Below are positions 48,813-64,000 of a stretch of DNA of 64,000 nt, one piece after another. Origin of the DNA: Lysobacter capsici (GTDB lineage: Bacteria; Pseudomonadota; Gammaproteobacteria; Xanthomonadales; Xanthomonadaceae); the NCBI RefSeq assembly GCF_014779555.2, contig NZ_CP094357.1, forward strand, positions 1,240,001-1,304,000, read 5' to 3'. Position numbers and translations under genes: made by a program. Each line of letters starts with the position of its first letter. Position 1 is the first letter of the stretch. The notes beneath the pieces were generated by a model that was not told the origin of the DNA, did not search any database, and was given only the letters and a program-made list of their open reading frames with translations.

Positions 48813-50201
48813 ATGTCGGCAGTTCAAGGCGCCAGCCTGCCCTCCGGGCGAGTGCATACCGGAGAGTGGCGCGCGGTCGCGTTCTCGGTGGGCTATTTCT
48901 TCTGCGTGCTGACCGCGTACTACGTGATCCGGCCGCTGCGCGACCAGCTCAGCGGCGCGGTCGGCTCGACCCAGTTGCCGTGGTTCTACCTGGCCACCTT
49001 CATCGCCACGCTGGCGCTGACGCCGGTGTTCTCCGGCCTGGTCTCGCGTTATCCGCGGCGGGTGGTGGTGCCGCTGGTGTACGGCTTCTTCATCGTCTGC
49101 CTGCTCGCGTTCATGCCCTTGTTCGGCGAACACGGGCCGCTGAGCGCGCGCGCGCTGGGCACGGTGTTCTTCGTCTGGATCAGCGTGTTCAACCTGTTCG
49201 TGGTGTCGGTGTTCTGGAGCTTCATGACCGACATCTGGAGCGAAGGCCAGGCGCGGCGGTTGTTCCCGGTGATCGCGGTCGGCGGCACGGTCGGTTCGCT
49301 GGCCGGTCCGGTGCTGACCCGGGTGCTGGTCGACCGAATCGGCGTGGCGCCGCTGCTGATGGTGTCGGCGGGGCTGCTCGGCCTGGCGCTGGTGTTCGTG
49401 ACCCTGCTCGGGCAGTGGTCGCGCGTGCACGGCACGCGCCGGCACGAGGCCTCGCACGAGGCGGCGATCGGCGGCGGCATGCTCGACGGGCTCAAGCAGA
49501 TCTTCTCCAATCCGTTCATGGCCTCGATGGCGCTGCTGCTGTTGCTCGGCGACTGGATCGGCACGGTCAACTACGGCCTGGTCGTGGATTATTCCAAGGC
49601 GACTTTCACCGACGCGGTGGCGCGCACGCGCTTCGCCGCCGACCTGGACCTGATGACCAATATCGTCGCCCTGACCATGCAGGTGCTGATCACGCCGTGG
49701 CTGTTGTCGCGGCGCGGCGCGGCGTCGGTGATCGGGGTGTGGTCGGTGGTGACGGTGGCGTTTCTGACCTTGACCGCGATGGTGGCCGACGCGCATGCGC
49801 CGTTGACCGAAGTGTTTCCCGCCTTCGGGGCCTTGATCGCGATGCTGCCGGCCGGAATGGCGGCGACGATCGCGCCGATGCCGGCGGTGGCGATCACCCT
49901 GGTGATCAGCCGCGGGCTGGCCTACGGCATGGTCAATCCGGCGCGCGAAAGCCTGTTCACCAGCGCCGCGCGCACCCTGCGCTACAAGGGCAAGAATGCG
50001 GTCGATACCGCGTTCTGGCGGTTCGGCGACGTGACCGTGGCGACCACCGTGGTCGCGCTGCGCAGTGTCGGTGTCGGCGTGGCCGGGCTGGCCGGCATCA
50101 GCGCGGCGGCGGCGGCCGGCGCGGGGGTGATCGGCTGGCGGGTCGCGCGCTGGGTTCAGCGCAACAACACGGCGGAACGTCGCGAGACCACCCAGGCATG
50201 A
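48813..50201 (+). CDS. MFS transporter resembling NTP/NDP exchangers (copy 1)
   Basis: 462 residues with about 12 hydrophobic segments. The start region YFFCVLTAYYVIRPLRDQLSG and the loop SFMTDIWSEGQARRLFPVIA are shared with the bacterial ATP/ADP-translocase-like group of MFS proteins and with the paralog at 51472. PARESLFTSAARTLRYKGKN is another shared block. Substrate is inferred only from distant similarity. Its stop overlaps the metallophosphoesterase start (ATGA). Confidence 0.72.
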   Translation: MSAVQGASLPSGRVHTGEWRAVAFSVGYFFCVLTAYYVIRPLRDQLSGAVGSTQLPWFYLATFIATLALTPVFSGLVSRYPRRVVVPLVYGFFIVCLLAFMPLFGEHGPLSARALGTVFFVWISVFNLFVVSVFWSFMTDIWSEGQARRLFPVIAVGGTVGSLAGPVLTRVLVDRIGVAPLLMVSAGLLGLALVFVTLLGQWSRVHGTRRHEASHEAAIGGGMLDGLKQIFSNPFMASMALLLLLGDWIGTVNYGLVVDYSKATFTDAVARTRFAADLDLMTNIVALTMQVLITPWLLSRRGAASVIGVWSVVTVAFLTLTAMVADAHAPLTEVFPAFGALIAMLPAGMAATIAPMPAVAITLVISRGLAYGMVNPARESLFTSAARTLRYKGKNAVDTAFWRFGDVTVATTVVALRSVGVGVAGLAGISAAAAAGAGVIGWRVARWVQRNNTAERRETTQA

Positions 50202-51073
50202 GGCGCGACTGGCGACCGTGGCCGCGCCAGCAATGGCTGCAGCGGGTGCTGGTCACGCTGGTGCTGTGCGCGGTCGCGTGCCTGGCCTGGGGGTTTTTCT
50301 GGGAACCGCGGCAGTTGATCCAGCGCGATTACGAATTCGCCTTGCCGCATTGGTCCAGCGAATGCGAAGGCCTGCGCGTGGACGTGGTGGCCGACCTGCA
50401 TACCGGTTCGCCGCACAACGGCCTGGACAAGCTCGACGACATCGTCGCCAAACTGGCCGAGAGCGACGCTCAGGCGGTGCTGATGGCCGGCGACTACGTG
50501 ATCCTGAGTGTTTTGGGCGGCACTTATATTTCGGCCGACCAGATGGCGCCGCACCTGCGCCCGCTGACCGCGCGCAAGCCGGTGTATGCGGTGCTCGGCA
50601 ATCACGACTGGTGGAAGGACGGCCACAAGGTGCGCGCGGCGCTGGAAGCGGCCGGCGTGATCGTGCTCGAAGACCAGGCCGTGCAGACCCGTCTGGGCAA
50701 CTGCCGGGTGTGGATGGTCGGCATCGGCGACAAATGGGAAAGCCCGCACGACATCGGCAAGGCCTTCGCCGACGTCGACGACAACGCGCCGGTGATCGCG
50801 CTGACCCACAACCCCGACCTGTTCCCGGACATTCCGGCGCGCGCATCGCTGACGATCGCCGGCCACACCCACGGCGGCCAGGTGAAGCTTCCGTGGATCG
50901 GCACGCCGGTGCTGCCGGCCGACCAACGCTACGCCGGAGGCTATCTGATCGAACACGGCAAGCACCTGTTCGTTTCGACCGGCATCGGCACCAGCATCCT
51001 GCCGGTGCGGTTCGGGGTGCCGCCGGAGATTTCGCGGTTGAGGTTGAAGGCGGCGAGCCGGTCGGTTCCTTAG
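50198..51073 (+). CDS. Membrane-anchored metallophosphoesterase (YkuE-like)
   Basis: 291 residues; ATG overlaps the preceding stop by 4 bp. One N-terminal transmembrane helix (about 15-33) and a calcineurin-like domain with DLHTG (about 66), GDYV, GNHDWW (about 131), THNPDLF and GHTHGGQ (about 226-232). The GHTHGGQVKLP motif is typical of the YkuE/YaeI group, which acts on phospholipid head groups or related substrates outside the cytosol. Coupling with the transporter suggests a linked substrate. Confidence 0.85.
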   Translation: MRRDWRPWPRQQWLQRVLVTLVLCAVACLAWGFFWEPRQLIQRDYEFALPHWSSECEGLRVDVVADLHTGSPHNGLDKLDDIVAKLAESDAQAVLMAGDYVILSVLGGTYISADQMAPHLRPLTARKPVYAVLGNHDWWKDGHKVRAALEAAGVIVLEDQAVQTRLGNCRVWMVGIGDKWESPHDIGKAFADVDDNAPVIALTHNPDLFPDIPARASLTIAGHTHGGQVKLPWIGTPVLPADQRYAGGYLIEHGKHLFVSTGIGTSILPVRFGVPPEISRLRLKAASRSVP

Positions 51074-51089
51074 CGCATCGCTCAATCCG

Positions 51090-51113
51090 TCATTCCCGCG
51101 AACGCGGGAATGA
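51090..51113. repeat. REP-like palindrome TCATTCCCGCG/CGCGGGAATGA
   Basis: Perfect 11-bp arms around AA, 16 bases after the metallophosphoesterase stop. Related to the core of the 87-bp array at 43902. Confidence 0.85.
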
Positions 51114-51471
51114 CGGTAGGGAAGGTCGCCGCGGTGCGAGCCGCGACGGTAGCGACGATGCTGACAGCGCCAGGCAAGAAACGTGTGAGCGCACCGCACC
51201 GCCATGCCACGCGACGCCTGCGCGAGTGCAACGCCGGTCACGCCCCATGCCGAAGGTTGGGATGACCATCCGCAGAGGTCACGGCCTCGCGCCGGCGTTA
51301 GCTTGGGCGGGGGAATGGGAGCCGCGCGATGCGCAAGCCGGTCGGGCACTGCGAAACCACGGACGCATGGCGGACAGGCGCGACGGCTTGTTCGCCGTAT
51401 CCGGCTGAGCGGCGTCCGGCTCTGCGGCAGCCGGCCATGCGATACCCGACGGTAGCTCAGCGGTGCCTGGG
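51114..51471. other. Intergenic region between metallophosphoesterase and second MFS gene
   Basis: 358 bases with no credible gene or repeat. Presumably holds the promoter of the second transporter. Confidence 0.4.
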
Positions 51472-52857
51472 ATGAATCAAGTCGCCGCGCTTTCCCATCG
51501 CGATCGCGACCCGGTCGCCTCGAGCGCGCCGCTGTGGTGGTCGCTGCTGTACTTCTTCTGCCTGCTATGCGGCTACTACGTGCTGCGTCCGGTCCGCGAT
51601 GCGATGGGCGCGTCCAACGATGCCGCGACGGTGTTTCCGCACGCGATGGTCGCCTGGGCGCAGGCGCACGGCTGGCAGCTCAAGGACTTCGTGCTGCAGG
51701 TGCTGTTCACCGCCACCTTCGTCAGCATGGTGCTGCTGCAACCGGTGTACGGCGCGCTGGTCGCGCGGTTTCCGCGGCGGGTGTTCCTGCCGGTGGTGTA
51801 CGTGGTGTTCATCGCCTGCCTGTTCGGTTTCCACTGGGCGTTCGATACCGCGGTGCCGGGACGCGGCATGGTGTTCTTCGTGTGGATCGCGTTGTTCAAC
51901 CTGTTCGCGGTGACGGTGTTCTGGAGTTACATGGCCGACGTGTTCGACGACGCGCAGGCGCGGCGGGTGTACGGCTATATCGGCGCGGGCGGCACCGCCG
52001 GCGCGGTGATCGGGCCGATGCTTACCCAATGGCTGGTGCAGCCCTTGGGCGTCGCGAATCTGCTGTTGGTCTCGATCGGGTTTTTGTCGGTGTGCGTGCT
52101 GTGCATCGTGCGCCTGCGGCCGTGGGCGATGGCGCGCGAGCGCCGGCAGGGGCTGGTCAGCGGCGAAGCGGCGATGGGCGGTTCGGTCTGGGCCGGGCTC
52201 AAGCTGGTGTGGCAGCGGCCGGTGCTGCGCGCGATGGCGGTGACCTTGTTCTTCAGCGTCGGCGCGGCGACCTTGCTCTACAACCAGCAGGCGGCGATCG
52301 CGCGCGAGTTCTATCCCAACGCGGTGGCGGCGACCGCGTACTTCGCCCGCATCGACAGCGCGGTCAACGTGCTCGCGATCCTGACCCAGCTGCTGCTCAC
52401 GCGCTGGCTGTTGAACCGTCACGGCGTCGCGCCGGCCTTGCTGATGCCCGGCTTGACCTTGCTGCTCGGCTTCGGCGTGCTGCTGGCTTCGCCGGTGCCG
52501 GTGATGGTCGCGATCGTGCAGGTGCTGCAGCGCGGCAGCGAATTCGCCCTGGCCAAGCCCGCGCGCGAAACCCTGTACACGCGCATGGACCGGCCGTCGC
52601 GCTACAAGGGCAAGGCGGTGATCGACACCGCAGTGTTCCGCGGCACCGACCTGGCCTTCGCCTGGGTGCACAAGGGCGTGGCGCTGCTGGGCACCCAGGC
52701 GGTGTTCGCCGCCGGCCTGCTCGCCGCGCTCGGCATGACCGCGGGCGCGTGGAGCATCGTGCGCGCGCAGCGCCGGCTGCCAAGCGCGCATCGCTCTTCC
52801 GAATTGCCTTCTTCCGATCGTTCTTCCGAACCCCAATCCGCACGAGGTGAATCATGA
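51472..52857 (+). CDS. MFS transporter resembling NTP/NDP exchangers (copy 2)
   Basis: 461 residues from the ATG at 51472; a GTG at 51463 is an alternative. Paralog of the gene at 48813: LLYFFCLLCGYYVLRPVRDAMG, SYMADVFDDAQARRVYGYIG and PARETLYTRMDRPSRYKGKA align with the matching blocks there. About 12 transmembrane segments, Ser/Arg-rich tail. Its TGA overlaps the next ATG, so it is co-translated with the SDR gene. Confidence 0.72.
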   Translation: MNQVAALSHRDRDPVASSAPLWWSLLYFFCLLCGYYVLRPVRDAMGASNDAATVFPHAMVAWAQAHGWQLKDFVLQVLFTATFVSMVLLQPVYGALVARFPRRVFLPVVYVVFIACLFGFHWAFDTAVPGRGMVFFVWIALFNLFAVTVFWSYMADVFDDAQARRVYGYIGAGGTAGAVIGPMLTQWLVQPLGVANLLLVSIGFLSVCVLCIVRLRPWAMARERRQGLVSGEAAMGGSVWAGLKLVWQRPVLRAMAVTLFFSVGAATLLYNQQAAIAREFYPNAVAATAYFARIDSAVNVLAILTQLLLTRWLLNRHGVAPALLMPGLTLLLGFGVLLASPVPVMVAIVQVLQRGSEFALAKPARETLYTRMDRPSRYKGKAVIDTAVFRGTDLAFAWVHKGVALLGTQAVFAAGLLAALGMTAGAWSIVRAQRRLPSAHRSSELPSSDRSSEPQSARGES

Positions 52858-54706: not shown

Positions 54707-57700
54707 ATGCGTCGTTTCGAGTATGTGGAAGGCAGTTCGAGCAAGTTTTGGGAAGCCGAGCAGGACGGTAGCGATCTCAATATCCGCTGGGGCCGCATCG
54801 GCACCGCCGGACAGAGCCAGACCAAGGCCTTCGCCGATGCGAACAAGGCCGCCGCGGCACTGATCAAGCTGATCGACGAGAAGACCGGCAAGGGATACGT
54901 GGAAGCCGTCGCCGCCGCGGGCGCGAGCATCGGCAAGACCGCCGACAAACCCAAGGCCGACAAACCCAAGCCCGAGCCGGCGGCCGAGACGGTCGCGGCG
55001 CCCGCGACATCGCCCGCATCGCCTGGCGCCGCCGCGCCGCATGCCGCGGCCGCGCAAGTCGCAGCACCCCAGCCCGCGCCTTTCGCCGCGCCGAACGCAA
55101 CCGCCGTCGCGACGGACCGCGTTGCCGATGCCGCCACCGCATCCGTCGCCGCCGCATCCGACACGCCGCCGTGGCTCACCGACGGCGCACCGCTCGACAT
55201 CGGCCCGGACCTGATCAAGCTCGCCCTGGCGACCCGGCGTCATCCCAAGCCGATCGCCGACACCGATCCGCTCAAGCTGTGGCTGGCCGCGCGCGAGATC
55301 CTGCTCGCCGGCAACCGGATCGAACTGAGCAAGACTGATCCTGCCTGGCAGGAGGCGCTGGCCGAGGCCGGCGAACGCCTGCAATCGCGCCGGCCCGACG
55401 GTTCGGACGCGTCCACCGCCGCGCTGCTCGCGCTGACCATGGGCTATGGCGATCGCGATGCCGGCGTGCCGTTCGTGGGCTTCCTGGTCGCGCGCCATGG
55501 CTTGCTCAAGGCGGTCGAGCATTTGTTGGAGGCGCAGCGCTCGCTGGTCGTCGGCACCGATTGGGACCGCGCGACCCAGAAGCACGAGCGTTTCCTCACC
55601 GCCGATCCCGATCGCCCGCTCGGTTCGAGCTGGCACGGCCCGCTCAGCGAGGGCGAACTCGCGTTTCGCGAGCACCTCGCCGCCGCGCCGCAGGCCTTGT
55701 ACGACGAATGCGCGCGGCGGATCGTCGAGGTGCTGCCGCAGTTGCATCCCTCGCGCCAGATCAGCATGGCGATGCTGTTGCCCGACCGGCCGGAATTGTC
55801 GAACGAACTGGCCCATCGCTACGGCGGCAATGGCGCGCCGGCGCAGTTGCACTGGCTGCAGCTCAGCGCGACCGATCCGGCCGCGATCGCGATCGCGCGC
55901 AAGGTCAAGATCGACGGCTATACGCCGTTCTTCGGCCACGAGGACATGGTCGCCACGGTGTTGATCGAGCACGGGGTGGAGGCGCTGGACCGGCTCGCGC
56001 CCGGTGCCGGCTACGATGCCGCCGGCGAGGCGCTGGTCGCGATCGGCACGCCCGACGCGATCGAAGCGCTGGCGGCCGCGGCCAGCATGAGCAAGAACAC
56101 GCTGGCGCGTCTGACCCGCGCGGTGAATCGCTGGCCGAGCGCGGCGATGGTCGGGCTGGCGCGGGTCATCGCCAACGGCGGCAAGGACGCGGTATTGCTC
56201 GGCCCGAGCCTGACCGCGCTGCTGCGCGCGCGCGCCGATCAGGTGCCGGCGTTGCGGCCGTGGCTCAGCCCGGCCGCGGCGCAGACCATCGACAAACTGC
56301 TGGCCCAGCTCAGCGGCCCGGCCGAAACCGCCGCGCCCGACGAACTGCCGCCGGTGCTGGCGGCGCCGCCGTGGCTCGGTACCCGGCCCAAGGTGTTGAC
56401 GGTGACCGGCCTGGAGCCGTTGCCGCTGGCCGCGGTCGAGCATTGGACGCCGGCCGAACGCGAGGCCGCGCTGGATCTGGGGCCGTGGAAGCGCGAGCGT
56501 TTCGAAACGCTGCGCAACGACGCCATGGCGATGACCACGCTGCTCGGCTTCAAGCAGCACGACGTGTTGGACAAGTCGGTGTTCCAGGAGGCTGCCAAGG
56601 CGATCCGCACGCGCGACAGCCAGGCCTTGATCGAGGCCTGGCGTCGTTACAAGGCCATGCGCACGAACGGAGGCTGGAGCTGGATGCCGATCGACGGCAC
56701 CGAATTCGGTCAACTGCCCGAGGAATTGGCGCTGCCGGTGTGGAACGCGCTGGCCGGCGAAGGCGACAGCGACTACGGCGTGGATTACATGCTCGCGCGC
56801 TTCGGCCTGGCGGCGCTGCCCGGCGTGAGCGCGGCGGTGCGGCGGCGTCCGAGCGAGCATCTGCAAGTGGCGCTGCACGTGGGCACGGTCGAGTTCGCGC
56901 CGCTGATGGCGCGCGCGTTCGCCAAGCTCAAGAGCGTGCGCGATATCGGCCGCCGTTGGCTGCTGGCCAATCCCGAATACGCCGCGTGCGGTTTGATCGC
57001 GCCGGCGATCGGCAAGGCCGGCGAGGCGCGCGATTGCGCCGCCTCCGGCTTGCGCCTGCTCGACGAACAAGGCCATGGCGCGCTGCTGCGCGAGGTCGCC
57101 GCGCGTTATCAGCGCGAGGACGTGAGCGCGGCGCTGGAAGCGATGCTGATCGAGAATCCGCTCGACCGTTACCCGAGCAAACGCCCGCCCTTGCCGACGT
57201 TCTGGCAGCCGCGCGGCTGGCGCCGTCCGGTGCTGCGCAACGGCAAGGCGCTGCCGGATCAGGCGCTCGATCACGTCGGCACGATGTTCGCGTTTCCGAC
57301 CAACGAAGGCGTGTATCCGGGGATCGAACAACTGCGCGAGGCCTGCATCGGGCCATCGCTGGCCGATTTCGGCTGGGACGCGTTCGGTGCCTGGCTCTAC
57401 GCCGGCGCGCCGTCCAAGGACAGCTGGGCGATGAATGTGCTCGCGCTGATCGGCAACGACGAGACCGCGCGCCGGCTCACCCCGTATATCCGCGCTTGGC
57501 CCGGCGAGGCCGCGCATGCGCGCGCGGTCGCCGGCCTCGACGTGCTCGCCGGGATCGGCAGCGACGTCGCCCTGATGCTGCTCAACGGCATCGCCCAGAA
57601 GGTCAAGTTCAAGGGCCTGCAGGACAAGGCGCGCGAGAAGATCGAGGAGATCGCGCAGGCGCGCGGGCTCAGCGCGGAAGAACTGGAGGATCGGCTGGCG

Positions 57701-58648
57701 CCCGACCTGGGCTTGGACGAACACGGCACGATGCTGCTGGATTTCGGCGCGCGTCAGTTCCGGGTCGGTTTCGACGAAGCGCTCAAGCCGTATGTGCGCG
57801 ACAGCGACGGCGCGCGTCTGGCCGATCTGCCCAAGCCGAAGAAGAGCGACGACGCGGAGTTGTCGAAACAGGCCACCGAACGCTTCAAGCTGCTCAAGAA
57901 GGACGTGCGTACCATCGCCAGCCAGCAGGTGCTGCGGCTGGAAGTGGCGATGTGCAGCCGGCGCCGCTGGACGGTGGAGGTGTTCGAGCAATTCCTCGCC
58001 GGCCATCCGCTGCTGCGCCATCTGGTCCAGCGCCTGGTCTGGGGCGTATACGAGGCCGACGCCGACGATGCCGGTTACGGCGGCCGTCTGCGGGCCTGTT
58101 TCCGCGTCGCCGAAGATGCGAGCTACACCACCGCCGGCGACGATGGCTTTGAGTTGCCGCGCGGCGACAGCGTGCGCATCGGCCTGCCGCATGCGCTGGA
58201 GTTGCCGGCCGCCGACGCGGCCGCGTTCGGCCAGTTGTTCGCCGATTACGAACTGCTGCAGCCGTTCGCGCAGATGGGCCGCGACGTGCATGCGCTCGAA
58301 CCGGCCGAACGCGAGCAGGACAAGCTGCTGCGCTGGAAGGGCGTGGTGGTGCCGACCGGGCGCGTGCTCGGCCTGGTCAACAAGGGCTGGCGGCGCGGCA
58401 CCGCGCAGGACGGCGGCGGCATCTGGTACTTCAGCAAGCCGCTGGGCCGCGACTGGGTGATCGAGCTGACCCTCGACCCGGGCATCATCGTCGGCATGGT
58501 CGACGAATACCCGGAGCAGACCTTGCAGGAAGTGCAGATCGGCAAGCCGTCGAGCTGGGGCAACATGCAGACCGCCGAGCGCTTGTCCGGGCTCGATCCG
58601 ATCTCGGCCAGCGAGTTGATCCGCGATCTCGAAGCGCTGCGCGCCTGA
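54707..58648 (+). CDS. yehI: WGR-domain / DUF4132 protein (YehI-like)
   Basis: 1313 residues from the ATG at 54707, with AAGGAG 7 bases upstream. The N-terminal WGR domain (residues 1-75) has WGRIGTAGQSQTKAF; WGR domains bind nucleic acids or proteins in PARPs and similar proteins. A low-complexity Ala/Pro linker (about 78-150) leads to a long helical region and a C-terminal DUF4132 domain (about 1070-1313) with LVWGVYEADADD and GMVDEYPEQTLQEVQIG. The order matches E. coli YehI (MolR-like). First gene of the five-gene cluster. Confidence 0.88.
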   Translation: MRRFEYVEGSSSKFWEAEQDGSDLNIRWGRIGTAGQSQTKAFADANKAAAALIKLIDEKTGKGYVEAVAAAGASIGKTADKPKADKPKPEPAAETVAAPATSPASPGAAAPHAAAAQVAAPQPAPFAAPNATAVATDRVADAATASVAAASDTPPWLTDGAPLDIGPDLIKLALATRRHPKPIADTDPLKLWLAAREILLAGNRIELSKTDPAWQEALAEAGERLQSRRPDGSDASTAALLALTMGYGDRDAGVPFVGFLVARHGLLKAVEHLLEAQRSLVVGTDWDRATQKHERFLTADPDRPLGSSWHGPLSEGELAFREHLAAAPQALYDECARRIVEVLPQLHPSRQISMAMLLPDRPELSNELAHRYGGNGAPAQLHWLQLSATDPAAIAIARKVKIDGYTPFFGHEDMVATVLIEHGVEALDRLAPGAGYDAAGEALVAIGTPDAIEALAAAASMSKNTLARLTRAVNRWPSAAMVGLARVIANGGKDAVLLGPSLTALLRARADQVPALRPWLSPAAAQTIDKLLAQLSGPAETAAPDELPPVLAAPPWLGTRPKVLTVTGLEPLPLAAVEHWTPAEREAALDLGPWKRERFETLRNDAMAMTTLLGFKQHDVLDKSVFQEAAKAIRTRDSQALIEAWRRYKAMRTNGGWSWMPIDGTEFGQLPEELALPVWNALAGEGDSDYGVDYMLARFGLAALPGVSAAVRRRPSEHLQVALHVGTVEFAPLMARAFAKLKSVRDIGRRWLLANPEYAACGLIAPAIGKAGEARDCAASGLRLLDEQGHGALLREVAARYQREDVSAALEAMLIENPLDRYPSKRPPLPTFWQPRGWRRPVLRNGKALPDQALDHVGTMFAFPTNEGVYPGIEQLREACIGPSLADFGWDAFGAWLYAGAPSKDSWAMNVLALIGNDETARRLTPYIRAWPGEAAHARAVAGLDVLAGIGSDVALMLLNGIAQKVKFKGLQDKAREKIEEIAQARGLSAEELEDRLAPDLGLDEHGTMLLDFGARQFRVGFDEALKPYVRDSDGARLADLPKPKKSDDAELSKQATERFKLLKKDVRTIASQQVLRLEVAMCSRRRWTVEVFEQFLAGHPLLRHLVQRLVWGVYEADADDAGYGGRLRACFRVAEDASYTTAGDDGFELPRGDSVRIGLPHALELPAADAAAFGQLFADYELLQPFAQMGRDVHALEPAEREQDKLLRWKGVVVPTGRVLGLVNKGWRRGTAQDGGGIWYFSKPLGRDWVIELTLDPGIIVGMVDEYPEQTLQEVQIGKPSSWGNMQTAERLSGLDPISASELIRDLEALRA

Positions 58649-58711
58649 GTTCTCAACTAACCCTTCAGCGCTGATCGACCTCGCCGCTTTCATGGAACAC
58701 GACTGAACGAC

Positions 58712-59836
58712 ATGGCCAAGACTCCGACCGTTGCTCCCGCACCCGCGCCGTCGCATCTGCAACGCCCGCCGGCCGAACTGCTGCACGCCGACGAACTCGC
58801 GCGTCTGGCCGCGAACGACCGCGACCCGCGGCCGCCCGGCTGGGCGCTGAGCCTGAAGGCCGCGCGCGCGTTCGTGCTCGGCGACGACAGCCTGGGCATC
58901 GAGCGCAAGATCGTCGCGCCGGTCGCGTCGATCGAACGCATGCTGGTGACCCTGGCCACCGGCCGCGGCCTGATGCTGGTCGGCGAACCAGGTACGGCGA
59001 AATCGCTGCTGTCGGAACTGCTGGCGACCGCGATCAGCGGCGTGTCGACCCTGACCATCCAGGGCGGCGCCTCGATCACCGAGGATCAGATCAAGTACTC
59101 GTGGAACTACGCCTTGCTGATCAACGAAGGCCCGAGCCCGCGCGCGCTGGTGCCGGCGCCGTTGTACCAGGGCATGCGCGAGGGCCGCATCGTGCGTTTC
59201 GAGGAAATCACCCGCGCGCCGCAGGAAGTGCAGGACTGCCTGCTGGGCATGCTGTCGGACCGGGTCATGGCGGTGCCGGAACTGTCCGGCGAGGACGGCA
59301 TGCTGTACGCGCGCGACGGTTTCAACATCATCGCCACCGCCAACACCCGCGACCGCGGCGTCAACGAGATGAGCGCCGCGCTCAAGCGCCGCTTCGATTT
59401 CGAGACGGTGTTTCCGATCCTGGATTTCGAACGCGAGCTGGCCCTGGTCGAACAGGCCTCGGCGCGGCTGCTCGCGCGCAGCGGCATTCCCAGATCGGTG
59501 CCGACGCAGGTGCTGGAACTGCTGGTGGAAACCTTCCGCGACCTGCGCGGCAAGGACAGCGGCGCGGCCCGCAGCGACGGCGCGATGGACCGGCTCAACG
59601 CGGTGATGTCCACCGCCGAGGCGGTCAACGTCGCCCATGCGGTCGGCGTGCGCGCGTGGTTTCTGGAGCAGCGCGAAGGCTCGCCGGCCGACCTGGTCGA
59701 CTGCATCGCCGGCACCGTGGTCAAGGACGACGCCGACGACCGCGCCAAGCTGCGGCGTTATTTCGAACAGAAAGTAGCCAAGAAAGGCGGCAGCCACTGG
59801 CGCGCCTATTACGAGGCGCGGCACCGCCTGCCGTGA
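58712..59836 (+). CDS. yehL: MoxR-type AAA+ ATPase (YehL-like)
   Basis: 374 residues. Walker A GEPGTAKS (about 91-98), Walker B-like IVRFEEI (about 160), sensor region FNIIATANTRDRGVNEMSAAL, then arginine KRRFDFETVFPI. These are AAA_5/MoxR features; the YehL branch of MoxR proteins is the match by context. Such ATPases remodel or chaperone partner complexes with VWA proteins. Starts 63 bases after the DUF4132 gene; its stop overlaps the next start (GTGA). Confidence 0.93.
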   Translation: MAKTPTVAPAPAPSHLQRPPAELLHADELARLAANDRDPRPPGWALSLKAARAFVLGDDSLGIERKIVAPVASIERMLVTLATGRGLMLVGEPGTAKSLLSELLATAISGVSTLTIQGGASITEDQIKYSWNYALLINEGPSPRALVPAPLYQGMREGRIVRFEEITRAPQEVQDCLLGMLSDRVMAVPELSGEDGMLYARDGFNIIATANTRDRGVNEMSAALKRRFDFETVFPILDFERELALVEQASARLLARSGIPRSVPTQVLELLVETFRDLRGKDSGAARSDGAMDRLNAVMSTAEAVNVAHAVGVRAWFLEQREGSPADLVDCIAGTVVKDDADDRAKLRRYFEQKVAKKGGSHWRAYYEARHRLP

Positions 59837-62316
59837 GCGCGTCGGCGATGGCGTCCGCGCGCGCGCCGGTGGTGATCGGCGTGCGTCACCACAGCCCGGC
59901 CTGCGCCCGGCTGGTGGCCGCGCGCATACGCGCCTTGCGTCCGCGTCATGTGCTGATCGAAGGCCCGGCCGACTTCAACCCGCGCATCGACGAACTGCAT
60001 CTGCCGCATCGTCTGCCGCTGGCGATCTACAGCTATCTGTCGCATGGCCCGTTGCATCGCGGCTCGTGGTCGCCGTTCGCCGAGCATTCGCCCGAATGGC
60101 AAGCGCTCAGCGTCGCCCGCGAAATCGGCGCACAGGCGCACTTCATCGATCTGCCGGCCTGGCACGAGGCCTTCGCCGAACTGCCCAACCGCTACGCCGA
60201 CGAAGCCGATGCGCAGGCGCACGACCGCGCCGAAGCGTATGAGGACGAGTTGTCGCGGCGGCTGTCGATCGACGGCCGCGACGCGTTGTGGGATCACCTG
60301 TTCGAGGATGCGCCTCACGATCTCGACGGGCCCGACGAGGCCTTGGCCCAGCGGCTGCACACCTACTTCGAACATCTGCGCCACGACGATCCCGGTTCGC
60401 ACGGCAACGCCGCGCGCGAACAGATGATGGCGCGCTGGATCGCCTGGGCGATGGCGCGCGGGGACGGACCGGTGCTGGTGGTATGCGGCGGTTATCACGC
60501 GCCAGCGCTGACCCGGTTGTGGCGCGAGGTCGATGTCGAAAGCTTCGGCCGCGACAGCGACGGATTGCGTTGCCCGGCCACGCCGGTGCCCGAAGTCGAT
60601 TTAGCCGGCGATACGCAGGATCAATCCGCGTCCGGGCAAGCGCCGGCATTGCGCTACGGCTCGTTCCTGGTGCCTTACGGTTTCAAGCGTCTGGACGCGT
60701 TCACCGGTTACGCCTCGGGCATGTCGTCGCCGGCGTTCTACCAATGGGTGTGGGAATCGGGCATGGCCCAGGCCGGCCTGCGCATGCTGCAACGCGTACT
60801 GGCGCGTTTGCGCGGCAAGCACCTGCCGGCCTCGACCGCGGATTTTGTCGCCGTGCATACCCACGCCCAGGCATTGGCGCGTCTGCGCGGGCATGCGCAC
60901 CCGCTGCGTTCGGACTGGCTCGACGCGATCGCCGGCGCGCTGGTCAAGGACGCGCTCGACGCGCCCTTGCCGTGGAGTTATCGCGGGCCGATCCGCGCCG
61001 GCACCGATCCGGTACTGATGCAGGTGATGGACGTGATCGCCGGCGATGCGGTCGGAATGCTTGCGCCCGGTACGCCGCAGCCGCCGCTGCTGGCCTCGGT
61101 GCAGGCCGAACTCAGCGCGCACGGTCTGGCGTTCGACGGCGAACGTCGGCTGGACTTGCTCGATCGCGCCGATCGCGCGCGCAGCCGGGTGTTGCATCGT
61201 CTGCTGTTGCTGCAGATTCCCGGGATCGAGCGTCGCCAGGGTCCGCGGCTGTCGATGTCGGGCGAACGCCGCGAGCTGTGGCAGTTGCGCGCGCCGTTGG
61301 AACAGCAGGCGGCCTTGATCGAAGCCGGCGCGTACGGCGCGACCTTGCTCGATGCGGCGCGCGCGCGTATGGAAGAACGCTTGCGCGCCGCGCAGGGCCG
61401 GGTCGAGCCGCTGGCGCAGGCGCTGGATGCGGCCGCGTTCGCCGGATTGGCCGAAGTCAGCGACGGCTTGCTGCGCGATCTGCGCGCGGCGATCGCGGCC
61501 GAGCCGCGGCTGGAAGCGATCGGTTCGGCCCTGGCCTTGATCCATGCGCTGTGGCGGCATGGCGACCTGCTCGATATCAGCGGCGCGCCGGTATTGGCGG
61601 CCACGATCGAAGCCGGCTTCGATCGCGCACTGTGGTTGCTGGAACCGGCCGCGAGCATCGCCGCGGCCGACGCTGGCCAGCATCTGCGCACCATCGCGGT
61701 GCTGCGCGACATCGTGCGCGACGCGCTGGCCGACGCCGACGCTGATACCGATGCACCGCGGCCAGGCCCGCGGCTGGCGATCGAACCGGCGCGCGCGCTG
61801 GCGGTGCTGCGACGCAAGGCGCTGGACCCGCAGGCCGATCCGCTCGGACGCGGCGCCGCGTTGGGCGCCTTGTTCGATCTGCACGCCGGCCGCGGCGGGC
61901 AGGAAACCGACGATATCGCGCAGGCGCTGCATCTGCTCGGCGCGCTCGCGCCGGCGCGGCTCGGCGATGCGCTGACCGGGCTGGTGTCGCTGGCGCGCGA
62001 ACGGCTGACCCAGGAGCGCGCGTTCGTAAGCGGGCTCGACGCCCTGGTCGCCGCGCTCGACGATGCCGACTTCGTACTCGCTCTGCCGGCGATGCGCGGC
62101 GCGTTCGCCTGGTTGCCGCCGCGCGAACGCGGCGAGCTCGCGCATAGCGTGCTGCGTCTGCACGGCGCCGATCATCTGTCGCAGCGCGCGCTGACCGCCA
62201 CGATCGCCGCCGATCCGGCCCAGGTCGCCGCGGCCGCGCGGATCGAAGCGCAGGTGCTGCAACGTCTGCGCGACTGGGGCCTGGACGCGGTCGCCGACGA
62301 GGAACCCGCGCGATGA
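59833..62316 (+). CDS. yehM: DUF5682-family protein (YehM-like)
   Basis: 827 residues; GTG at 59833 overlaps the ATPase stop by 4 bp, with an ATG five codons later as an alternative. The N-terminus PVVIGVRHHSPACARLVAAR and VLIEGPADFNPRIDEL are typical of DUF5682. PVLVVCGGYHAP (about 216-227) sits in the N-terminal half; the C-terminal half is helical and Ala/Leu/Arg-rich. Homologs sit between MoxR and VWA genes. Biochemical function unknown; the conserved His residues suggest a metal site, which is inference. Confidence 0.87.
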   Translation: MSASAMASARAPVVIGVRHHSPACARLVAARIRALRPRHVLIEGPADFNPRIDELHLPHRLPLAIYSYLSHGPLHRGSWSPFAEHSPEWQALSVAREIGAQAHFIDLPAWHEAFAELPNRYADEADAQAHDRAEAYEDELSRRLSIDGRDALWDHLFEDAPHDLDGPDEALAQRLHTYFEHLRHDDPGSHGNAAREQMMARWIAWAMARGDGPVLVVCGGYHAPALTRLWREVDVESFGRDSDGLRCPATPVPEVDLAGDTQDQSASGQAPALRYGSFLVPYGFKRLDAFTGYASGMSSPAFYQWVWESGMAQAGLRMLQRVLARLRGKHLPASTADFVAVHTHAQALARLRGHAHPLRSDWLDAIAGALVKDALDAPLPWSYRGPIRAGTDPVLMQVMDVIAGDAVGMLAPGTPQPPLLASVQAELSAHGLAFDGERRLDLLDRADRARSRVLHRLLLLQIPGIERRQGPRLSMSGERRELWQLRAPLEQQAALIEAGAYGATLLDAARARMEERLRAAQGRVEPLAQALDAAAFAGLAEVSDGLLRDLRAAIAAEPRLEAIGSALALIHALWRHGDLLDISGAPVLAATIEAGFDRALWLLEPAASIAAADAGQHLRTIAVLRDIVRDALADADADTDAPRPGPRLAIEPARALAVLRRKALDPQADPLGRGAALGALFDLHAGRGGQETDDIAQALHLLGALAPARLGDALTGLVSLARERLTQERAFVSGLDALVAALDDADFVLALPAMRGAFAWLPPRERGELAHSVLRLHGADHLSQRALTATIAADPAQVAAAARIEAQVLQRLRDWGLDAVADEEPAR

Positions 62317-63434
62317 GCCTGGACTTGCCCGATCCGCTGCAACGTTGGCGCCTGCTGCTGGGCGAGGCCGCCGACCCGAGCCTGGGCGCGCCGCAGGGCG
62401 AACTCGCCGCCGCCGATGCCGCATTGGAGTGGCTGTACGGCCGCGATCCCGAGCGCGGCGAACGCGGCGAGCGCGGTGGTTTGGGCCCGTCGGCGCTGAG
62501 CGTGCCGGACTGGATCAACACCGTGCACTCGCTGTTTCCGCAGGAGGTGATCGAACGCCTGGAGCGCGACGCGGTCGAGCGCTACGGCATCGACGAGATC
62601 GTCACCAGCCTGGACGTGCTCGAACGCATCGAGCCGTCCGAATCGCTGCTGCGCGCGGTCCTGCACACCAAGCATCTGATGAACCCGCAGGTGCTGGCGG
62701 CGGCGCGCAAGCTGGTCGCCGAAGTGGTGCGGCGGATCATGGAGAAATTGCAGACCCAGGTGCGGCAATCGTTTTCCGGCACTCGCGATCGCCGTCGCCG
62801 CTCCTCGCAGCGGATCGCGCGCAATTTCGATTTCCGCCGTACCGTGCGCGAAAACCTGCACCGCTGGGACCCGCAACGCCGCCGCCTGTTCCTCGACAAA
62901 CCGGTGTTCGTCAGCCGCAGCCGTCGCCACAGCGAACGCTGGGACATCGTGCTGCTGATCGACCAGAGCGGTTCGATGGTCGATTCGGTGATCCACTCGG
63001 CGGTGATGGCCGCCTGCCTGTGGAACCTGCCGGGCATGAGCACGCGCCTGGTCGCCTTCGACACCGCGGTGGTCGATCTGACCGCGGACGTGGCCGATCC
63101 GGTCGAACTGCTGATGAAGGTGCAGCTCGGCGGCGGCACCGATATCGCCAAGGCGGTGGCGTATGCGCAGTCGCGGATTTCCAATCCGGCAAGGTCGATC
63201 GTGGTGCTCGTGAGCGATTTCTTCGAAGGCGGCAGCGAGTACGAACTGGTGCGCCGGGTCAAGGCGCTGGTCGAGTCCGGAGTCAAGGTGCTCGGCCTGG
63301 CCGCGCTCGATCCGCAGGCGCGGCCCGCGTTCGATCGCGACATGGCCGCGCGTCTGGTCGCCGCCGGCGCCCACGTCGGCGCGATGACGCCGGGCGAGTT
63401 GGCGGCATGGCTGGCCGAGAAGGTGCGCGCATGA
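62313..63434 (+). CDS. yehP: VWA-domain protein (YehP-like)
   Basis: 373 residues; ATG overlaps the previous stop. The C-terminal von Willebrand A domain (about 205-370) keeps the metal-ion-dependent adhesion site: DQSGSM (about 216), GGGTDI (about 273) and SDFFEGG (about 301). The N-terminal part (1-200) has a basic helical region SGTRDRRRRSSQRIARNFDF. VWA proteins are the standard partners of MoxR ATPases. Its stop overlaps the SWIM gene start. Confidence 0.93.
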   Translation: MSLDLPDPLQRWRLLLGEAADPSLGAPQGELAAADAALEWLYGRDPERGERGERGGLGPSALSVPDWINTVHSLFPQEVIERLERDAVERYGIDEIVTSLDVLERIEPSESLLRAVLHTKHLMNPQVLAAARKLVAEVVRRIMEKLQTQVRQSFSGTRDRRRRSSQRIARNFDFRRTVRENLHRWDPQRRRLFLDKPVFVSRSRRHSERWDIVLLIDQSGSMVDSVIHSAVMAACLWNLPGMSTRLVAFDTAVVDLTADVADPVELLMKVQLGGGTDIAKAVAYAQSRISNPARSIVVLVSDFFEGGSEYELVRRVKALVESGVKVLGLAALDPQARPAFDRDMAARLVAAGAHVGAMTPGELAAWLAEKVRA

Positions 63435-64000
63435 GTCCGCGCCGTCCCGACCTGCTCGAACTGTCTGTCGATGCGCTGATCGCGCTGGCCAACGCCGGGT
63501 TCGTCAAGCGCGCGCTGAAGGAACTCGACGAGGGGCGGATGCCTCGGATCGAGGAACTCGACGACGGCGCGGTGCGCGCGCTCTACGACGACGGCCAGCA
63601 CGCGACGTTGGCGGCGGGCCGGTCCTTGCGCGAGGCGGTGTGCAGTTGTCCGGCCAGCGGGCTGTGCCGGCATCGGGTGACGTTGGTGTTGGCGTATCAG
63701 CGTTGGGTGCGCGATGCGGTGGGTGAGGGGGCGGACGAAGCGCCGGTGTCCGACGCGAACGATGCGGTTGCCGATCCGTCGGGCGATAGCGCGTCCGCCG
63801 CCGAGATCGCGCCGCAGCGCTGGACCCCAACCGAATTCGACGATGCCGCGATCGCCGCTGCGTTCCCCGCCGCGACCGTGGACCTCGCGACGCGGCTCGC
63901 CGCCGCGCGACCGGTGATCGCATTGCAGGCCGGGCTCGGCGATAACGCGCCCAACGCGCGCCTGCCGATGTGCTCGGTGCGGTTCTTTTCGCGCAGCAGC
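63431..64000 (+). CDS. yehQ: SWIM zinc-finger protein (YehQ-like), truncated by window end
   Basis: About 190 N-terminal residues are present and the frame is still open at the window end. The SWIM motif CxCx(n)CxH is Cys71, Cys73, Cys79, His81 (CSCPASGLCRH), a zinc-binding fold seen in DNA- or protein-binding proteins. It starts 4 bp inside the VWA gene. It completes the E. coli-like yehI-L-M-P-Q order; the rest of the protein and any further genes lie outside. Confidence 0.9.
   Translation, partial: MSPRRPDLLELSVDALIALANAGFVKRALKELDEGRMPRIEELDDGAVRALYDDGQHATLAAGRSLREAVCSCPASGLCRHRVTLVLAYQRWVRDAVGEGADEAPVSDANDAVADPSGDSASAAEIAPQRWTPTEFDDAAIAAAFPAATVDLATRLAAARPVIALQAGLGDNAPNARLPMCSVRFFSRSS

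Follow-up and report, generated by a model that had tools for sequence, protein, structure and literature searches.

What do five adjacent genes at the right-hand end of a 64,000-nucleotide stretch of Lysobacter capsici DNA make together? The stretch, referred to here as the window, comprises positions 1240001-1304000 of a 6.24-Mb single-contig genome. The five genes, all on the + strand, encode in order a WGR-DUF4132 protein, a MoxR ATPase, a DUF5682 protein, a CoxE-type VWA protein and a SWIM zinc-finger protein (Table 1). The first two are separated by 63 bp, and the last four are joined by 4-bp overlaps (GTGA at 59833, ATGA at 62313 and ATGA at 63431), so that the coordinates bear out the arrangement described in the original prediction, which was made from the sequence alone. 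That prediction also ended the cluster at 64000, but this position is only the edge of the window, and in the genome the SWIM gene continues to the equivalent of position 65569 to encode 712 aa (L002:9431-11569). All five proteins exceed the curated Pfam cut-offs for the families in which they had been placed, and NCBIfam profiles gave only matches far under their cut-offs. We interpret the unit, with a probability of roughly 45%, as an ATP-driven remodelling machine that includes a putative metallohydrolase and acts in the response to damage or stress; catalysis, complex formation, substrate and role in this genome are what we infer.

In such a machine, the MoxR AAA+ ring (gene 2) would act as the motor and the CoxE-type VWA protein (gene 4) as its adaptor. 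The DUF5682 protein (gene 3) is probably a metal-dependent hydrolase, which would be fed, activated or metallated by the motor. The WGR-DUF4132 solenoid (gene 1) and the SWIM protein (gene 5) may represent recognition arms, whose target would most likely be damaged DNA or a nucleic-acid-bound protein, and the device as a whole would most likely serve a DNA-damage or related stress response. The specific proposal that the substrate is bound to nucleic acid is tentative, and is best regarded as doubtful.

The five genes almost certainly form one functional unit. Within a phylum sample of 349 genomes, the window's included, DUF5682 passes the cut-off in 13 and DUF4132 in 11. Two versions of DUF5682 are distinguished by their Pfam scores, namely type B, the version in the window (329-371 bits), and type A (658-865 bits). 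Type B is found in nine of the sampled genomes, every one of which also has DUF4132 (Fisher p 2.9e-16), and DUF4132 is found without DUF5682 in two. One of the nine (G253) also holds type A. The gene order of the window is kept in seven of the nine; in G209 the WGR-DUF4132 copies separate DUF5682 from VWA, and the genes of G224 are split over two contigs. In this neighbourhood analysis gene calls are short or missing at L036, L040 and L056, and the order at L036 and L040 was taken from a separate neighbourhood scan.

A scan of 84,980 species genomes with the type-B alignment returned at least 594 stretches, of which at least 569 were confirmed. The loci analysed here are the best 80 of these, picked by similarity to the query and thus not a random sample. 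The closest named relative among the matches listed is Lysobacter sp. Root690, whose DUF5682 is 94% identical. The five genes are found in order in 68 of the 80 loci and the last four in 75. Among the exceptions, WGR-DUF4132 follows SWIM in three (L070, L079, L132), lies on the opposite strand in two (L088, L106) and is not seen in two (L093, L103); contig ends truncate three loci (L063, L065, L113), and L083 and L086 lack further genes even though no contig end intervenes. At the Variovorax sp. E3 locus (L076), the DUF5682, VWA and SWIM frames are split. By record title, the 80 loci are spread over Pseudomonadota, Actinomycetota, Acidobacteriota (Thermoanaerobaculia, Holophagales) and myxobacteria (Sandaracinaceae, Polyangiaceae). 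Between two and four WGR-DUF4132 copies (matches >1.8 kb) are present in 26 of the 68 complete loci, for example L087, L090, L091, L126 and L131, which suggests a diversified recognition arm.

The unit also appears to come and go as a block. Its neighbours are a DUF1304 gene on the left and a flavodoxin-fold gene on the right, and 13 genomes of the same genus were compared at this site. The two flanking genes are 11.18-11.25 kb apart in the three genomes with the unit, the window's included (G000, G001, G003), and 116-278 bp apart in G002, G004, G006, G007 and G009. They are 0.97 kb apart in G005 and unlinked in G008 and G010, and a close flavodoxin homolog was not found in G011 or G012. Since the flanks are adjacent in five genomes and parted by the unit in three, it has been gained or lost whole. 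When the flanks are compared by BLAST with the five empty sites, the left alignments end at most 2 bases from the DUF1304 stop and the right ones at most 27 from the flavodoxin stop, and the cassette is therefore exactly these five genes. Together, the co-occurrence, the shared order and the joint gain or loss uphold the conserved unit that had been proposed. Beyond its borders, 649 flanking genes of the 80 loci, called with a program trained on the codon usage of the window that may overlook genes where the G+C of a locus is lower, contain no family recurring at a fixed place. Two flank clusters span at least five genera (nine genera for one, an ABC-type ATPase by eye, and seven for the other), both at scattered distances. 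Neighbours seen at single loci include a uracil-DNA-glycosylase-superfamily gene at L031:15674-16354 and RtcB at L034:16847-18079.

Within the unit, MoxR, DUF5682 and VWA are read as a three-protein core whose scaffolds have been swapped. In six genomes of the same genus (G002, G004, G008, G009, G015, G018), type B is replaced by type A, in which the order is SWIM, DUF5691, MoxR, DUF5682 and VWA; the Pfam evidence for this order covers SWIM and DUF5691 at three loci and DUF5691 at one more, the other such genes being assigned by place or SWIM motif. The same order is found, by RefSeq names, on a plasmid of Deinococcus taeanensis. The type-A architecture thus has in common with the window the three-gene core and a SWIM gene, and a DUF5691 protein stands where the window has WGR-DUF4132. 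No sequence relation between these two was detected (probability 1.4%), and neither is detectably homologous to the helical half of DUF5682; weak HEAT matches are found in one of four DUF5691 proteins. In trees of 47 loci, the 13 type-A loci are set apart by MoxR (support 1.0), DUF5682 (1.0) and VWA (0.999), and within type B the pairwise distances of the three proteins correlate with r 0.946-0.961 (33 loci). This phylogeny is consistent with a MoxR-VWA remodelling pair for which DUF5682 would be the constant third partner. A possible third architecture is seen at locus L027 of G054, where a 962-residue protein that matches HEAT weakly comes after MoxR, DUF5682 and VWA, and where neither WGR-DUF4132 nor SWIM was found. 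The same genome also holds a complete type-B unit (L028).

The motifs of the individual proteins are well preserved. Alignment of the 80 loci with the window gave 80 usable rows for MoxR, 77 for VWA, 75 for SWIM and 81 for DUF5682, and the AAA+, VWA and SWIM motifs noticed originally are kept in at least 95% of them. For MoxR these are Walker A GEPGTAKS, Walker B FEEI, sensor N211 and RRF; the Walker B consensus has Asp where MoxR here has Glu. For VWA they are the DQSGS of the metal-ion-dependent adhesion site (MIDAS) with T276 and D302, and for SWIM the first motif, C71xC73...C79xH81. The second SWIM motif is rarer, the pattern being found twice in 28 of the 75 rows. The motif residues of DUF5682 are likewise kept in at least 95% of its rows. 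MoxR is likely to be YehL-like, an assignment made through the gene order held in common with E. coli yehL. The WGR-DUF4132 protein consists of an N-terminal WGR domain, an Ala/Pro-rich linker, an alpha-solenoid and a C-terminal mixed alpha/beta DUF4132 region. An AlphaFold2 model of its residues 540-1313 (predicted local distance difference test, pLDDT, 92; predicted template modelling score, pTM, 0.79) has around 456 helical residues followed by mixed alpha/beta structure. When this model was compared with the PDB by Foldseek, nothing was found at E 0.001, and armadillo/HEAT proteins were the top weak matches.

The protein that gives the machine its putative chemistry is DUF5682. Across 18 diverse members, the motifs RHH.P, L.EGP, SPE, F.D, RE..M and G..H are invariant or nearly so. 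The AlphaFold2 model (pLDDT 87, pTM 0.82) has an N-terminal alpha/beta domain and a mostly helical remainder, and GVRHH, IEGP and GGYH lie at or just past the ends of strands (13-17, 39-45 and 214-219). A GxxH-Glu signature is characteristic of the TIKI superfamily, in which ChaN has its place. By hhalign, the N-terminal part of DUF5682 matches 24 ChaN (PF04187) sequences with a probability of 55% (E 1.2e-4 for the single pair) over 170 columns, with GVRHH/GETHD, IEGP/LEFF, REQMM/DEGMA and CGGYH/AGSGH in register, and 30 TraB (PF01963) sequences with 39% (E 3.2e-4) over 39 columns around the second GxxH. As controls, TraB against ChaN gave 88% over 43 columns, and nine control comparisons gave at most 0.7%. 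In addition, nine of nine sub-threshold PF18934 matches overlap TraB/GumN genes found with the TraB profile. Searches of PDB sequences with DUF5682, single and profile, yielded nothing useful. The N-terminus of DUF5682 is thus very probably a ChaN/TraB-like domain of the TIKI superfamily, newly recognised here and not noticed in the original prediction. DUF5682 is slightly more apt to be an active hydrolase than not. TIKI proteins are described as metalloproteases, and Tiki/TraB as a recognised superfamily (PMC12329661).

The lead to a biological role comes from relatives in Escherichia coli and Deinococcus. The E. coli K-12 locus, yehF-yehH(pseudogene)-yehI-yehK-yehL-yehM-yehP-yehQ, contains the same families in the same order as the window, in agreement with the original prediction. 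RefSeq names yehL as MoxR, yehP as VWA, yehQ as SWIM and yehI as DUF4132, and yehM is labelled as DUF5682 family in other E. coli records. The extras in K-12 are the WGR gene yehF and pseudogene yehH upstream, together with the small gene yehK; yehF and yehH (L138:2475-6270, NC_000913.3) appear to be pieces of a second WGR-DUF4132 gene, formerly called molR. Another Escherichia locus (L082) holds more than one WGR-DUF4132 copy. An IS5-family transposase gene splits yehM in E. coli HNSQ2209 (NZ_CP137737.1, 1867916-1871259), and a stop lies within DUF5682 in Escherichia sp. MOD1-EC7003 (L081:10001-12289). The deletions reported for a reduced-genome E. coli take in yehI to yehQ and part of molR (PMC10652928), and the yeh genes are therefore dispensable in that strain.

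E. coli molR appears in lists of LexA-regulated genes (PMC11039860, PMC4576408), and a LexA-like box lies directly before the first WGR gene in four of six enteric loci (E. coli, another Escherichia, Klebsiella and Intestinirhabdus). In Deinococcus radiodurans, DdrO sites are described upstream of DRA0165-DRA0166 (DUF4132) and of the WGR gene DR2173, and mitomycin C is reported to induce the proteins DRA0166 and DR2173 in an IrrE-dependent manner (PMC8533742). Two damage regulators, LexA and DdrO, may thus act over relatives of one gene, which is the best functional lead, and it is because of this regulation of relatives that we favour remodelling in response to damage or stress. Of the three roles originally offered, stress repair is accordingly the one that gains from published work. 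A damage or stress role would stand at about even odds, and the lead is not carried to the window itself by sequence. A search upstream of the WGR-DUF4132 genes for a universal SOS signature gave none. Actinobacterial GAACN4GTTC-like sites (at most 1 mismatch) occur upstream of 23 of 69 such genes, at 2.7 times the density in the same loci, an enrichment that is weak because the background is mostly coding sequence.

A number of observations weigh against the proposed machine. With respect to the hydrolase, the hhalign probabilities of 55% and 39% are only moderate, and the nine weak PF18934 matches amount to one observation because they apparently represent one orthologous gene in related genomes. 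A Foldseek comparison of the full DUF5682 model with the PDB gave nothing at E 0.001 and returned helical-repeat matches, and neither ChaN nor TraB is among the 50 of 1076 matches listed for the full-length protein. With respect to recognition, WGR is missing from the sister type-A architecture. With respect to regulation, the enteric box is missing in Erwinia and Serratia, its ACAGGG half may be a ribosome-binding sequence, and a 7/8 core match arises in 17% of shuffled 500-bp stretches. The likeness of DRA0166 to the present system lies in DUF4132, and DRA0166 need not belong to such a five-gene cluster. No LexA-, Xanthomonas- or actinobacterial-type box is found within 400 bp upstream of the unit in the window, G001, G003 or Root690, and among 27 proteobacterial upstream regions of WGR-DUF4132 genes the E. 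coli-type box (at most 1 mismatch) is present in five and the Xanthomonas type in none.

Other explanations make different use of the same parts. The five genes could mature a cofactor or metal centre, with MoxR and the CoxE-type VWA protein opening a client, either a molybdoenzyme or DUF5682 itself, and inserting metal or cofactor. The old name molR, which is said to have been given for molybdate use by Lee in 1990, points in this direction, as do the membership of the VWA protein in the CoxE family (E 5.2e-64) and the conserved His/Glu set of DUF5682, which could be a metal site. There is precedent in NorQD, described as inserting metal into nitric oxide reductase (PMC13036017). However, the flanks of the 80 loci contain no fixed-place neighbour family, molybdenum genes not having been searched by name; moeA and moeB are reported as not differentially expressed on DdrO depletion (PMC8533742); and WGR and SWIM modules would be unexpected in a metal chaperone. 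Maturation is therefore rather unlikely as the overall role, and metal or cofactor insertion, also among the roles originally offered, is possible, for instance through loading of DUF5682's own metal site by MoxR-VWA. A machine for translation or RNA quality control, in which WGR and SWIM contact RNA and a stalled ribonucleoprotein is remodelled, is very unlikely. It would agree with a synthetic growth defect reported for combined deletion of molR and lepA, but the same screen is reported to have picked tonB and ubiF as well (PMC4245954), and RtcB, which adjoins the unit at one locus (L034), is one of ten neighbours run through Pfam and does not recur in the flanks of the 80 other loci. A sharper version of the damage response would be an AAA+-driven metalloprotease of a new class, in which MoxR-VWA threads proteins or pulls them off DNA and the ChaN/TraB-like domain cuts them. 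WGR and SWIM would mark breaks or crosslinks, and the system would clear DNA-protein crosslinks or nucleoprotein in bacteria, under LexA or DdrO in separate lineages; in this narrow form the idea is quite improbable.

A defence-type system had also been suggested. Directed against phages or other invaders, it would have WGR and SWIM sense foreign nucleic acid and the motor free DUF5682 as a toxic hydrolase. Patchy distribution, gain or loss as a block and multiple WGR-DUF4132 genes (at least two in 26 of the 68 complete loci) would all suit such a role, and ternary systems related through MoxR and VWA have been put forward as conflict systems (PMC7159879). A mobilizable plasmid, pl1 of Iodobacter fluviatilis (L201), carries the five-gene unit with two DUF4132 genes, adjoining a type I restriction system and an integrase. 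Against this, no PADLOC family matches the five proteins significantly (best 0.0059), and 78 of 163 candidate flanking proteins gave seven matches in five families. DNA of yehM is present in 5284 of 5426 E. coli genomes (5166 at 80% coverage or more), and 5289 of 5291 places are chromosomal. DUF5682 matches 31 of 72,556 plasmid records, several of them chromosome-sized, and one of 50,697 phage records, where the match is partial; among IMG/VR viral contigs, 18 pattern matches included no confirmed relative. The phage record (L200, MT835988.1) is an unverified 14-kb contig labelled Bacteriophage sp. that could be bacterial DNA. The candidate effector, DUF5682, is moreover constant, whereas repeated effector displacement is given as a mark of conflict systems (PMC7159879). 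The flanks, yehM, PADLOC and the viral contigs thus speak against defence, which we consider unlikely, and remodelling in response to damage or stress is retained as the preferred reading.

Table 1. The five genes of the unit and their principal motifs, in positions of the window
Feature	Position	Strand	Evidence or remark
WGR-DUF4132 gene, YehI/MolR-like	54707..58648	+	1313 aa; AAGGAG 5 bp before ATG
WGR domain, residues 5-67	54719..54907	+	PF05406 E 8.6e-17; PDB 2ra8 sequence match 3.3e-10
DUF4132 domain, residues 1035-1228	57809..58390	+	PF13569 E 1.7e-48
MoxR-family AAA+ ATPase gene, YehL-like, 374 aa	58712..59836	+	PF07728 (AAA_5) E 1.2e-34
Walker A GEPGTAKS, MoxR residues 91-98	58982..59005	+	Conserved motif
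Walker B VRFEEI, MoxR residues 161-166	59192..59209	+	Conserved motif
DUF5682 gene, YehM-like, 827 aa, GTG start	59833..62316	+	PF18934 E 7.2e-102
First GxxH-type motif GVRHH, DUF5682 residues 16-20	59878..59892	+	
Conserved Glu motif IEGP, DUF5682 residues 42-45	59956..59967	+	
Conserved R195-E196..M199 of DUF5682	60415..60429	+	
Second GxxH motif GGYH, DUF5682 residues 219-222	60487..60498	+	
VWA gene, CoxE-type, YehP-like, 373 aa	62313..63434	+	PF05762 (VWA_CoxE) E 5.2e-64
MIDAS DQSGS, VWA residues 217-221	62961..62975	+	Completed by T276 (63138) and D302 (63216)
SWIM zinc-finger gene, YehQ-like	63431..64000, on to window-equivalent 65569	+	PF04434 E 3e-6
First SWIM motif CxC..CxH, residues 71-81	63641..63673	+	
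Second SWIM motif, residues 196-206	past window end	+	

Outside the unit, a long frame that by eye is RHS/YD-repeat-like starts downstream of the cluster (L002:14518-18000). Upstream, at 48900-52857 of the window, two transporters of the major facilitator superfamily type flank a frame resembling a phosphoesterase by eye; the first transporter is under the Pfam cut-off and the second weakly matches TLC ATP/ADP transporters.

The genes themselves are already known and named in RefSeq, and what is new is the reading of DUF5682 as ChaN/TraB-like. The 5.39 million open-licence papers of PubMed Central that were searched contain no mention of DUF5682 or DUF5691, and among the matches listed from them there is no description of the five-gene system and no functional study of the E. 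coli yeh cluster. These unstudied genes nevertheless occur in nearly every E. coli genome examined and, by record titles, across several phyla. With candidate catalytic residues named and an inducing condition suggested, five unknown genes become one testable enzyme system, recast as a putative hydrolase, DUF5682, with a MoxR-VWA motor and exchangeable recognition arms.

How does such a system compare with those already described? A subfamily of MoxR has already been given the name YehL (PMC11834572), and the arc2 cluster of Pseudomonas aeruginosa is reported likewise to hold MoxR and VWF-domain genes (PMC8926400). The MoxR-vWA ternary conflict systems, as presented in PMC7159879, are likewise gene clusters in which MoxR and VWA are accompanied by a third component of their own. 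Their third component is VMAP, iSTAND, FtsH or a beta-propeller, whereas that of the window is DUF5682, and Pfam detected none of the former in the five proteins (bpMoxR scored 16.7 bits against a cut-off of 27). Unlike the ternary systems, the window-type cluster showed no effector swapping, and the main text of PMC7159879 makes no mention of SWIM, WGR, YehI, DUF5682, YehL or YehP. With ChaN, TraB-PrgY-GumN and TIKI, residues 10-300 of DUF5682 have in common the order GxxH-E-...-GxxH and an alpha/beta domain; in contrast to them, DUF5682 has around 500 extra, mostly helical residues and is tied to an AAA+ motor. The RavA-ViaA, NorQ-NorD and CbbQ-CbbO pairs, like the window, bring together a MoxR ATPase and a VWA protein with an intact MIDAS in one operon, and CoxD-CoxE is a further MoxR-VWA chaperone pair. 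To the arrangement found in these pairs, the window adds a constant DUF5682 partner, a solenoid protein and a SWIM protein.

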